Shown: one piece after another, positions 29,151 through 32,692 of the stretch
How the letters are laid out: the number at the start of each line of letters is the position of its first letter
Position numbering within the stretch: the stretch's first letter is position 1
Source of the DNA: Methanobacteriota archaeon
GTDB lineage: Archaea; Thermoplasmatota; Poseidoniia; Poseidoniales; Poseidoniaceae
Assembly (NCBI GenBank): GCA_009937025.1
Contig: JAACDG010000030.1
Location: forward strand, 1 to 32,692
Length of the DNA: 32,692 nt
Direction of reading: 5' to 3'
Translations under genes and position numbers: made by a program
The notes under the pieces: generated by a model
What the model saw: the letters and a program-made list of their open reading frames with translations, nothing else
Databases searched by the model: none
Told to the model about the DNA's origin: nothing

Positions 29151-31235
29151 ATGCAACCTATTCAGCGTGTAGCGATTGTTGGTGCGGGAAACATGGGTTC
29201 CGGTATTGCTCAAAAAACGGCTCAAGAAGAATTTGATGTTCAAATGGTTGACAGAGAGCAACAATGGGTCGATAGAGGTCAAAGTATCATCGCAAATTTC
29301 CTTTCAGAGGCTGTTGAGCGACGCATTTTTTCTCCTGCCCAAGTTGAAGCGATTGAAGGTCGAATCACCGGTGTTGTTGGAGTTGAAAACACGGCGGTAG
29401 ATACGGATTTAGTGATTGAAGCAGTGTTCGAAGATTTCGATATCAAAACTGCGGTTTTCAACACGCTTGACAAAGCATGTGGGCCCGATACAATCCTTGC
29501 CTCAAACACTTCCTCGTTATCGGTCAACGCATTGGCTGAAGCAACCGGTCGTTCAGACCGGTTTGTTGGATTGCATTTCTTTTATCATCCTGCAAAAAAT
29601 CGTTTAGTCGAAGTCATTCCAGCACATGCATCGAGTCCAGAGACCGTGGAAAAGGTCGTTCAATATTGTAAGATGCTTGGTAAGGTTGTCATCGTCTGTG
29701 CAGACCGCCCAGGTTTTGTCGTGAACAGATTCTTCGTTCCTTGGTTAAATGAAGCATGCCTACTCCTCGAAGAAGGCGTTGCCACCGCCGCCCAAATCGA
29801 TGCTGCTGCACGCAAAGCATTCCGCATTGGACTTGGTCCATTTGGATTGATGAATCTCACCGGTCCGCCGATTGCTCTCCATTCGACCGATTATTTGTCT
29901 GAGCAGTTGCACACACCTCGTTACAACGGTGCCCAAAATCTGCGCGATCTAATCGAAGCCAATGAGCAATGGGATATCGAAGGAGATGAATCCTATTCCG
30001 ATGAGCAATACACCACTGTTTCTGAACGCTTGTATGGCGTGGTTTTCGGTGTTGCTGCTCAAATTGTTGATGAAGGCGTCTGTTCGATGGAAGATGTGTA
30101 CCGTGGAGCAAAAGTAGGACTTCGTTGGGCTCGTGGTCCATTTGAATTAATGAATAAAGTCGGTGTTAGAGCCTCAACCCAGATGGCTCAAAAATATGCA
30201 GACTTAGCCGCAGAATCCGACCCATCTCGTGCTTGGAAGGTTCCACAATTCTTTGTCGACCAAGGCGATGCGAAGTGGACTTTCTCTTATGTTGATACAG
30301 CCATTGAAAATGGAGTCGCTACCATAACAATCAATCGACCAGAGGCAATGAATGCACTCAACGAAACAGTCGTTTCTCAACTTGGAGAAGCGTTGGATAA
30401 CGTCAATGGGAATGATTCTGTTCACACGATTGTATTGGATGGAGCAGGAAAAGCCTTTGTTGCAGGTGCAGATGTCAAATTCTTCGTCGATAAAATTCGT
30501 GCTGATGCTCTACCCGACATCGTTGAATTTACTGCTGACGGTCACGTGGTACTTGACAAACTTGAATCCTCATCAAAAACGACGGTAGCATTGACCACCG
30601 GTCTTGCACTTGGTGGTGGTTTGGAATTGGCCTTGTCGTGTGATTATCGCGTTGGAACTCGTCGAACACAATTCCGTTTCCCAGAGACTTCAATTGGAAT
30701 TTACCCGGGGCTTGGCGGCTCGCAGCGACCTGCTCGAATCAGTGGTATTCCAGCCGCCCGATGGGCTGTTCTTGCAGGGAACTTCATGGATGCCACCACC
30801 GCCGCAGACCTTGGTTTACTCACTCATTTAGTCGATGTCTCAGGTGTTAATGCATGTGTAGCTGAACTTGCTAAGAATGGCAAGCCAGTCAACAAATATC
30901 CAGGAAGTCCAGCGAATCCCGAGAGTGCAGTTGCAACCTTTTCGAGTTCATTTTTCGCCGATAAGAACATGGCTGATTTAATGGCAGGTACATGTCCAAC
31001 AGGTTTTGATGCCGAAGACCGTAACGTCTCACGGCAACTCAAATCACTTTCGCGCACAGCACCAATTGCTTTGTCGATGGCCAGTGCTTTGATTGATGAA
31101 AGTGCTAACACACCTCTTTCACAGGGTTTGCAGTTGGAGCTCGACCGACTTACTGAGATATTTTCAACCGCAGATTCACTCGAAGGCCTGTCAGCATTAA
31201 TCGAGGGTCGAAAACCGACCTATTCGAATGCATGA
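29151..31235 (+). CDS. Fused 3-hydroxyacyl-CoA dehydrogenase / enoyl-CoA hydratase
   Basis: A 694-residue bifunctional enzyme that hydrates enoyl-CoA and oxidises the hydroxyacyl-CoA, in beta-oxidation or crotonyl-CoA metabolism. The dehydrogenase is N-terminal: NAD-binding GAGNMGSGIA (11-20), ASNTSSLSV, and the catalytic pair His142 (GLHFFYHPAKN) and Glu154. A second HAD C-terminal unit follows (about 290-350). The hydratase begins near 385 (ATITINRPEAMNALN), with the oxyanion stretch AGADVKFF, catalytic Glu492 (LGGGLELALSCDY) and Glu512 (FPETSIGIYPGLGGSQRP). The 20-residue spacing equals that of Glu144/Glu164 in rat enzyme. Dehydrogenase-first order is common in archaea. Its stop abuts that of the next, convergent gene. 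Confidence 0.95.
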   Translation: MQPIQRVAIVGAGNMGSGIAQKTAQEEFDVQMVDREQQWVDRGQSIIANFLSEAVERRIFSPAQVEAIEGRITGVVGVENTAVDTDLVIEAVFEDFDIKTAVFNTLDKACGPDTILASNTSSLSVNALAEATGRSDRFVGLHFFYHPAKNRLVEVIPAHASSPETVEKVVQYCKMLGKVVIVCADRPGFVVNRFFVPWLNEACLLLEEGVATAAQIDAAARKAFRIGLGPFGLMNLTGPPIALHSTDYLSEQLHTPRYNGAQNLRDLIEANEQWDIEGDESYSDEQYTTVSERLYGVVFGVAAQIVDEGVCSMEDVYRGAKVGLRWARGPFELMNKVGVRASTQMAQKYADLAAESDPSRAWKVPQFFVDQGDAKWTFSYVDTAIENGVATITINRPEAMNALNETVVSQLGEALDNVNGNDSVHTIVLDGAGKAFVAGADVKFFVDKIRADALPDIVEFTADGHVVLDKLESSSKTTVALTTGLALGGGLELALSCDYRVGTRRTQFRFPETSIGIYPGLGGSQRPARISGIPAARWAVLAGNFMDATTAADLGLLTHLVDVSGVNACVAELAKNGKPVNKYPGSPANPESAVATFSSSFFADKNMADLMAGTCPTGFDAEDRNVSRQLKSLSRTAPIALSMASALIDESANTPLSQGLQLELDRLTEIFSTADSLEGLSALIEGRKPTYSNA

Positions 31236-31475
31236 TTATGCCCATTCATTTTGAATCTCAGACATCTCTTTGATTAAAGCGACAATATCGATTGTTTCTT
31301 CTTGCTCATGAGCAAGTTCAATACGATTCCGAACCGCTTCCACAAATTCTTCATCTGGTTTTTCCTTGAGAATACCTTCAATAAAATCTGCTAATGATTT
31401 TCCTTTCCCATGAGCGATAGCGATACGCGCACGTAACTTTTCAGCGTCATCTTTTGGTTTACGAACTCCACTCAT
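31236..31475 (-). CDS. 79-residue helical repeat protein of the E1-JAMM operon
   Basis: No family recognised. The protein is charged and predicted helical, with two similar units: RARIAIAHGKGKSLADFIEG then ILKE (about 16-39), and RNRIELAHEQEETIDIVALI then KE (about 49-70). Shared positions are RxRIxxAH, a later Asp and a terminal KE. It ends NEWA, so it lacks the Gly-Gly tail of a ubiquitin-like modifier. The ATG at 31475 overlaps the JAMM stop by 4 nt and follows GAGGTGA, so translation is coupled. It may be an adaptor or substrate of the E1-JAMM pair; that is inference from position. Confidence 0.8.
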   Translation of the reverse strand: MSGVRKPKDDAEKLRARIAIAHGKGKSLADFIEGILKEKPDEEFVEAVRNRIELAHEQEETIDIVALIKEMSEIQNEWA

Positions 31476-32023
31476 AGTTTCACCTCTTCTGCATTGAAAT
31501 GGTTGGCATACCAATCTTCCCATTGAATCACTTCTTCATCTGACCATTCACTCAGTGAACCTGTTGTAGAAAGTCGGAGTGAATCCGAAGACAAGGGGAG
31601 CATGGTTGCATTATGGGCGCATTTGACTCCAGGTGAACCGAGTACCATGGCTTTCTCAACAATTCCAAGTCCAATAGACAAACTATTGGTGTCCGTTCCA
31701 GACCAATAGGCGGCAAATCCAGGATGTGTGTGAACCCAGAGTTTGAACGGCGCTATACAACCAATCGGGGGCGCGAGTTGAACTTGTCCAGCAGTACCCC
31801 AATCGATAGAGATAACATTTTCAGCATCGATAAGAACCGATGTTTCAAGCCCAGCAAGATAAGAAATTGCATAGACGACATCCCAACGACCTTGTTGTGA
31901 AGCATTTCGTTGCACATCAAGAAGAACCTCATCATCGATTTGACGTTGTTCAGCCTTTTCAGTCACATGGTCCCAAACATCTTGGGTAATACCCAGTTGT
32001 TCTAAAGCAGGAATGAAAATCAT
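31472..32023 (-). CDS. JAMM/MPN+ metalloprotease-like protein
   Basis: A 183-residue protein with the zinc-binding JAMM signature HTHPGFAAYWSGTD: His98, His100, Ser108 and Asp111 in the spacing HxHPx6SxxD. JAMM enzymes cut isopeptide bonds or process ubiquitin-like and sulfur-carrier proteins. The N-terminal 90 residues include a predicted helical part and strands before the motif; the acidic residue that completes the active site is not certain. The tail (130-183) is acidic. The gene overlaps the E1-like gene by 4 nt (ATGA), with GGAGGTGA as ribosome binding site, and overlaps the next gene by 4 nt too. Confidence 0.88.
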   Translation of the reverse strand: MIFIPALEQLGITQDVWDHVTEKAEQRQIDDEVLLDVQRNASQQGRWDVVYAISYLAGLETSVLIDAENVISIDWGTAGQVQLAPPIGCIAPFKLWVHTHPGFAAYWSGTDTNSLSIGLGIVEKAMVLGSPGVKCAHNATMLPLSSDSLRLSTTGSLSEWSDEEVIQWEDWYANHFNAEEVKL

Positions 32024-32661
32024 ACTTTCACCTCCATGGTCTCTTTTTTCACACGCGGAAACTCAAAGGCTCCATACGTTAGACTTCCAATCGATTGAGA
32101 AGGTGCATGTCTGCCCCTAAGCCTTTGAACCAACCACTGAGCACCAAAAGTTCCAGCAATGGAAAATCCAAATTCAAGATTACCAGCATCGAGCGCTCCT
32201 TCGACTTGACAACTCATTGGTTCATGGTCAGGAGTCATTTGTTCAACCAATGACGTTTCAGAATCCGAAGAAAGGACCATCCACCCATCTCCCGAGCATC
32301 TCAAGTCAATCCCAGGCACATCAAGGGCGTGAACCAAGCGGCGAGGTTCAGGCCTGTCGACACAAATCACGACCAAGTCATATTCTTCAAGCTGTTCAGG
32401 CGTCCTCAAGTTTTCAACTTGAGATTGAAGTTCAACGTATCCAGTTCGCCCAGCATATCGTTGAGAAAGGGCCAATACCTTTGGAGTACCAATTTCATCA
32501 TGCGTGAATCGTTGGTGTCCAAGGTTGGTGGCCTCAACAATGTCGCCATCCATCAGCGTAATTTTGGCATTCATTTGAGTACGTTCCAATGCGGGTACAA
32601 TCAGTTCAACAAGGGTTGTTCCAATTCCACCAGCGCCGACGATAAGCACGTTTTTTGACAT
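32020..32661 (-). CDS. E1-like (ThiF/MoeB) adenylating enzyme
   Basis: A 213-residue E1-like protein. The ATP-binding Rossmann start is VLIVGAGGIGTTLVELIV (5-22; Gly9, Gly11, Gly14), then the acidic ITLMDGDIVEATNLGHQRF (35-52) with Asp38, Asp40, Asn46 and Arg51, IGTPKV with Lys61, and VVICVDRPEPRR with Asp102. These residues adenylate the C-terminal Gly of a ubiquitin-like or sulfur-carrier protein. The CxxC zinc pairs of MoeB are absent; Cys100, Cys122 and Cys151 remain as possible catalytic Cys. The start at 32661 follows GGAAGAAG. It is the first gene of the operon inside the window, 31 nt from the edge, so a modifier gene could lie upstream. Confidence 0.9.
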   Translation of the reverse strand: MSKNVLIVGAGGIGTTLVELIVPALERTQMNAKITLMDGDIVEATNLGHQRFTHDEIGTPKVLALSQRYAGRTGYVELQSQVENLRTPEQLEEYDLVVICVDRPEPRRLVHALDVPGIDLRCSGDGWMVLSSDSETSLVEQMTPDHEPMSCQVEGALDAGNLEFGFSIAGTFGAQWLVQRLRGRHAPSQSIGSLTYGAFEFPRVKKETMEVKV

Positions 32662-32692
32662 AGATTCTTCTTCCACGTTGAAGGAAGAATTC

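Follow-up and report, generated by a model that had tools for sequence, protein, structure and literature searches.

At the end of the window, which is the whole stretch of DNA that was analysed (32,692 nucleotides), three genes follow one another on the reverse strand. It makes up all of contig C114, which belongs to a Candidatus Poseidoniales (Marine Group II) genome that is 83% complete. The features that concern us are:

32020-32676, reverse strand: E1-like (ThiF/MoeB-fold) adenylating enzyme, 218 aa, matching Pfam ThiF
31472-32023, reverse strand: JAMM metalloprotease (predicted maturase or deconjugase of a ubiquitin-like protein, UBL), 183 aa, with an EXnHTHX7SXXD motif
31236-31475, reverse strand: small helical protein (SML), 79 aa, with two predicted helical-hairpin repeats (AF2 model and internal repeat)
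32020-32023, reverse strand: 4-nt ATGA overlap of the E1 stop and the JAMM start
31472-31475, reverse strand: 4-nt ATGA overlap of the JAMM stop and the small-protein start
32300-32692, no strand assigned: overlap with contig C183 of the same genome (G000:C183), 393 nt, 97.5% identical by blastn

The two 4-nt overlaps confirm the gene layout given by the first-pass annotation, and we read the one between E1 and JAMM as putative translational coupling. A convergent hydroxyacyl-CoA dehydrogenase/enoyl-CoA hydratase gene occupies 29151-31235; its stop codon abuts that of the small-protein gene at 31233-31238 with zero spacer. The conservation of the trio, proposed earlier as a check, is clear: the same three genes stand in the same order in about 17 relatives of the genus. 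All three evolve under purifying selection, with dN/dS against close relatives of 0.08-0.14 for E1, 0.06-0.08 for JAMM and 0.04-0.06 for the small protein. The ThiF match (E = 2.8e-17), the recurrence in about 17 relatives and the dN/dS range of about 0.04-0.14 together argue that the trio is not a chance arrangement. One genome, G003, carries an extra trio copy (L038, on G003:C6) beside a broken hydroxyacyl-CoA dehydrogenase gene, and its intact locus lies on C7.

The E1 gene starts at GTG 32676 (218 aa) or at an alternative ATG at 32661, and the enzyme is therefore essentially complete inside the window. It scores 63.1 bits against Pfam ThiF (cut-off 28.1) and has the GxGGxG and DxD nucleotide-binding residues that mark membership of the ThiF superfamily. 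GxGGIG, D43, D45, N51, H54, D107 and C156 are invariant in 17 homologues and K66 nearly so; C156, in the context SCQ, is the invariant one of three cysteines. The sequence contains neither a CxxC zinc motif nor a rhodanese domain. Relatives in the PDB include MccB, UBA6, UBA3 and Cap2.

The JAMM protein carries E60 and H98-T-H100-x7-S108-x-x-D111, matching the JAMM/MPN+ motif EXnHS/THX7SXXD (defined in PMC300881), and all 19 homologues compared keep E60, H98, H100, S108 and D111. Against Pfam Prok-JAB it reaches 14.1 bits, under the cut-off of 25. A profile of the family matches the Rpn11-like structure 6fjv and AMSH in the PDB (E 0.002-0.02), the Rpn11-like protein being best; we take 6fjv to be the Caldiarchaeum protein. 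With the Pfam match for one and the full motif, its key residues invariant, for the other, the E1 and JAMM identities of the first pass hold. A second JAMM-like protein of 252 aa, HTHPNAPAIPSNAD, is encoded in the same genome (L053, G000:C181:2228-2986) beside a phosphoglycerate mutase-like gene. It is possible that this protein is an alternative UBL protease, which would count against our reading of the trio.

The small protein has no match in Pfam or NCBIfam, nor by fold in Foldseek. An ATG further upstream would extend the ORF to 95 aa, but the conserved start gives 79 aa. A single-sequence AF2 model is all-alpha (pLDDT 73), and the sequence contains an internal duplication at an offset of 34 residues (0/300 column shuffles), so the label "repeat protein" was apt. 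Its gene is kept downstream of JAMM in most loci of family f1, the E1/JAMM family of the window, and is present at nearly all of that family's E1/JAMM loci that were inspected. The idea that it might replace a modifier failed: the protein is predicted to be all-helical, lacks a GG, has no Foldseek match and co-occurs with a real UBL.

Does the modifier lie just past the window's edge, as had been suggested? Contig C183, which appears from its overlap to be a strain-variant contig of the same genome, runs on upstream of E1 into a glycosyltransferase gene and then a GDP-mannose dehydratase gene (blastn). Relatives show the same upstream order, so a modifier just beyond position 32692 is ruled out. 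The contig of the window probably ends there through strain variation, given the 393-nt overlap at 97.5% identity. These neighbours equally rule out a thiamine or Moco operon, and the plain ThiS/MoaD operon that would have spoken against the first-pass reading was not what we found upstream. In several genera, the window-type locus is syntenic, lying between the GDP-mannose dehydratase gene and the hydroxyacyl-CoA dehydrogenase gene.

The modifier came to light through more distant loci. In these Poseidoniales loci, a protein of 73-102 aa ending ...RVLPGLVGG adjoins a homologous E1. Searching the window's own genome with it gave two adjacent matches on another contig, C66:

G000:C66:6958-7389: tandem UBL gene, 144 codons, two ubiquitin-sized domains

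Its neighbours, named from sequence and general knowledge, are presumably rpoP and an RFC gene. The search for a small beta-grasp protein thus succeeded. The earlier remark that no Gly-Gly modifier is visible stands for the window locus; the genome encodes a modifier on C66 that ends in Ala-Gly. The two repeats end ...VPALQAG-KGPSEE and ...VPALLAG-Q. That they end in AG rather than GG counts against a conjugation reading; the same Ala-Gly ends are seen in the species group (L150-L152, L154-L162, L165 and G000:C66), and relatives mostly end ...PGLVGG plus a short tail.

G10, W32, P60 and G65 are invariant in a profile of 14 UBL repeats. The family has no Pfam or NCBIfam model at cut-off. With a limit of E = 5, the matches listed for seven UBL proteins include neither Prok_Ub (PF14454) nor Multi_ubiq (PF14452), which we take to be the poly-UBL of bacterial type 6e operons. 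Profile searches of the PDB nevertheless return almost only ubiquitin and polyubiquitin, in register with the C-terminal GG; a single domain matches monoubiquitin marginally (E about 0.3-1). An AF2 model built with 45 natural repeats has the topology EE-H-EE-h-E (mean pLDDT 83). When it is compared with the PDB by Foldseek, ubiquitin and UBLs make up nearly all of the best 50 matches, including a bacterial UBL from an E1-E2-UBL complex, at E 0.02-0.2, none of the 50 reaching E < 0.001. TM-scores are mostly 0.4-0.5, and the best among the matches listed is 0.66, for the UBL of the sulfurtransferase structure 5ztb, which we take to be TtuB. As modelled, the tandem modifier is a member of the ubiquitin-like beta-grasp family.

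When about 85,000 prokaryote species were scanned, close relatives of the UBL (26 loci) were found only in records labelled Poseidoniales or Poseidoniaceae or, less precisely, Euryarchaeota. IMG/VR viral contigs scanned with the UBL gave no relative, and a viral origin was rejected on that basis. Genes in relatives hold one to four copies (four in L324). Each repeat found in the 26 Poseidoniales loci closes with GG or AG, and after it comes a linker to the next repeat or a tail of 1-6 residues, for example F, N, IC, LY, Q or AQEASC, which points to a precursor in need of processing. Judged by its sequence, the gene layout is that of a polyubiquitin precursor.

What ties this UBL to the E1 and JAMM of the window? 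A draw of 390 genomes from the phylum contains 66 with a match to the JAMM profile and 66 with a match to the UBL profile; 61 genomes have both, five JAMM only, five UBL only and 319 neither (Fisher p about 5e-59, descent ignored). All 61 belong to the order of the window. At genus level, 12 scorable genomes have both, seven have neither and none is discordant, with the apparent genus exceptions arising from contig ends or missing contigs (UBL absent in G001, G016 and G023; JAMM or the trio absent in G005, G026, G030 and G035). Co-occurrence exceptions in other genera are G210, G228, G301, G265 and G327, with G289 and G343 further cases. On the genus tree, each trait changes twice, together both times; two independent changes are too few for the phylogenetically corrected genus test to be significant alone.

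Individual genomes link the two loci more directly. G020, sister of G028 on the tree, lacks the trio and the UBL alike, each of the two unlinked sites being cleanly empty. At the trio site, the gap between the aligned glycosyltransferase and dehydrogenase blocks is about 40 nt in G020 and about 1.5 kb, with the trio, in G028; the UBL site measures about 70 nt versus about 655 nt. Elsewhere the genes are physically joined. In other genera, the UBL gene lies immediately upstream of E1 (L044-L047, L052 and L326-L329), and in L330 the JAMM gene sits between UBL and E1. E1 and JAMM are fused in L052 and L326-L328. L318, L319 and L320 encode UBL-UBL-E1 fusions in a single ORF, with JAMM and the small protein next, and the fusion in L320 stands at the GDP-mannose dehydratase locus, the neighbourhood of the window's trio. 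In G074, a single contig of 2.06 Mb, the trio and a di-UBL gene are about 395 kb apart, so broken contigs alone do not explain why the two loci lie apart in the window species. Co-occurrence, joint empty sites, adjacency and fusions all support the original proposal that this E1/JAMM pair works with a ubiquitin-like modifier.

Some loci contain a further protein family, C11/C17x, defined by an invariant Cys in [IV]CI...GD..A..LALxND and, in some members, by zinc-ribbon-like N-termini. It stands beside the system in L034, L035, L038, L039, L044-L048, L318, L319, L322, L326, L327 and L329, and in L321 it is apparently fused to the UBL, as judged by eye. Members beside UBL, E1 or JAMM genes include:

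L318:1473-3110: C11/C17x member
L322:6180-7289: C11/C17x member
L039:3188-4135: C11/C17x member
L044-L048: C11/C17x members
L321:4259-5341: C11/C17x member

The family has no database match. Its ICID motif is suggestive of an E2, but hhalign against UBE2D2 gave a probability of 0.2%, Pfam offered no support and a PDB profile search returned unrelated proteins. No E2/UBC homologue was recognised in Pfam scans of selected neighbour proteins. C11/C17x could be the missing transfer enzyme. The bolder proposal, that tagging proceeds without a UBC-fold E2, with C11/C17x as a new class of UBL-transfer protein and the 79-aa protein as a new UBL-binding adaptor, strikes us as unlikely.

Compared with the window type, the distant loci L044-L048 have a more accessory appearance. 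Proteins of 1282-1288 aa are encoded upstream of the UBL/E1/JAMM genes at L045:249-4115 and L046:6582-10430, that of L046 having no NCBIfam or PADLOC match. An AAA ATPase is present in L047 and L048, with similarity to IetA in L047.

We consider it likely that the trio is the enzyme half and the unlinked tandem UBL the modifier half of a two-locus conjugation system of Poseidoniales. We infer a polyUBL pathway that would be matured by JAMM and activated by E1. The UBL would start out as a precursor of head-to-tail repeats that ends in a short tail, the form in which the gene encodes it. JAMM would then cut after Gly-Gly or Ala-Gly, so that each monomer has a free Gly at its C-terminus, and would probably strip the UBL off targets too; both activities are suggested by its motif, the gene coupling and the Caldiarchaeum precedent. 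E1 would adenylate the UBL C-terminus and may hold the UBL on C156, the sole invariant candidate cysteine. Transfer to target lysines might proceed straight from E1 or, more speculatively, via the C11/C17x accessory protein found beside the system in other lineages. Haloarchaeal sampylation is a case of conjugation without an E2. The 79-aa helical protein might, most simply, be an adaptor or a UBL- or substrate-binding subunit of the E1/JAMM module.

Could the UBL instead be a sulfur carrier? In that case, the E1-adenylated UBL would become a thiocarboxylate sulfur donor for tRNA thiolation or cofactor synthesis, with JAMM merely maturing or recycling it. TtuB, SAMP2 and Urm1 are models of such carriers, and archaeal SAMPs serve both conjugation and sulfur transfer. 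The E1 is of the ThiF/MoeB type and the UBL match with the highest TM-score comes from a sulfurtransferase structure, as would suit this role; tRNA modification is a topic of PMC2948915. We nevertheless find it improbable. Sulfur-transfer, thiamine and Moco genes were not seen near either locus, the E1 has neither the CxxC motif nor the rhodanese domain, and JAB genes were not seen in thiamine or Moco operons (PMC1779556). Moreover, tandem UBLs and a multi-copy precursor better suit a consumable tag. The trio might also serve the ordinary MoaD/ThiS/SAMP proteins of the genome, with the tandem UBL belonging elsewhere, an arrangement that the separation of the loci in the window species and in G074 would allow. 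We give this almost no credence, since presence and absence, empty sites, operon adjacency and the UBL-UBL-E1 fusions all join the UBL to the trio.

An anti-phage conjugation cassette akin to BIL, CBASS type II or Bub, hinted at in the first-pass annotation, is very unlikely for the window locus. The E1, JAMM and UBL set does resemble these systems, and the extra proteins of L044-L048, including the ATPase with IetA similarity, fit such a role. However, the window-type locus is common to several genera and syntenic there, the UBL gene lies by rpoP/RFC, the scanned viral contigs contain no relative, and neither an E2 nor another effector was recognised. PADLOC gave no specific model match: its E1-E2 models were hit in their generic E1 portion alone. 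The synteny and the rpoP/RFC position of the UBL suggest vertical core inheritance with losses, and we infer that both loci are conserved core positions rather than a mobile defence cassette. Our preferred reading remains the two-locus conjugation system.

Why does this matter? Ubiquitin precursors with tandem copies are characteristic of eukaryotes, and some bacterial operons encode them too. An archaeal polyUBL with its own E1 and JAMM, encoded at conserved core loci in an order of archaea common in the surface ocean, is a small natural system in which to ask which parts ubiquitin tagging requires. Can it function without an E2, and why is the tag kept as a polyprotein? Among the papers searched, none was found to link Poseidoniales with such a system. 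No database holds a model of the UBL family, so many marine genomes probably list the genes of this pathway as "hypothetical".

How does it compare with known systems? The Haloferax SAMP/UbaA/HvJAMM system is an archaeal, E2-less UBL conjugation system with an E1 and a JAMM, and its SAMPs are single-domain and MoaD/ThiS-like; the E1 described here scores 33 bits against the NCBIfam SAMP-E1 model, whose cut-off is 450 bits. Its best NCBIfam match is the PRTRC-type E1 (TIGR03736), yet at 49.7 bits it is far under the cut-off of 144.75. The Caldiarchaeum ubiquitin/Rpn11 system is also archaeal, its JAMM cuts the UBL precursor tail exactly after GG (PMC6043591), and an Rpn11-like protein is the best PDB match of our JAMM. 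However, Caldiarchaeum has an E2, a RING E3 (PMC5654768) and a single-domain ubiquitin, whereas the present system has tandem UBLs and no E2 or E3 was recognised. BIL (BilABCD) shares a two-domain UBL, a JAMM that trims the UBL precursor and an E1 (PMC11354881). It differs in its E2, BilB, and in an E1 built of two parts, an inactive and an active adenylation domain; the E1 described here is a single adenylation domain of 218 aa, and no E2 was recognised.

The type 6e operons predicted by Iyer, Burroughs and Aravind in 2006, sporadic in bacteria, combine an E1, a JAB/JAMM and a protein of one to three tandem UBL domains, with zinc-finger-like and E2/RWD-like proteins nearby (PMC1779556). Extra neighbours occur in Poseidoniales too. 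In type 6e, however, JAB is mostly at the N-terminus of E1, whereas the Poseidoniales JAMM is separate or C-terminal. The Poseidoniales system is archaeal, its UBL has no Pfam match above cut-off and lies at a separate core locus or is fused to E1, the 79-aa helical protein is added, and no E2/RWD domain was detected. It would operate much as type 6e and BIL do, yet by the features tested it does not belong with them: Multi_ubiq and Prok_Ub gave no match, no E2 was recognised in the neighbour proteins scanned, the E1 is far under the PRTRC cut-off and the domain order differs. Bacterial cassettes are patchy, whereas several genera keep the window-type locus at the same core position. The Poseidoniales system is a variant of the bacterial E1/JAB/polyUBL operons that is itself new.
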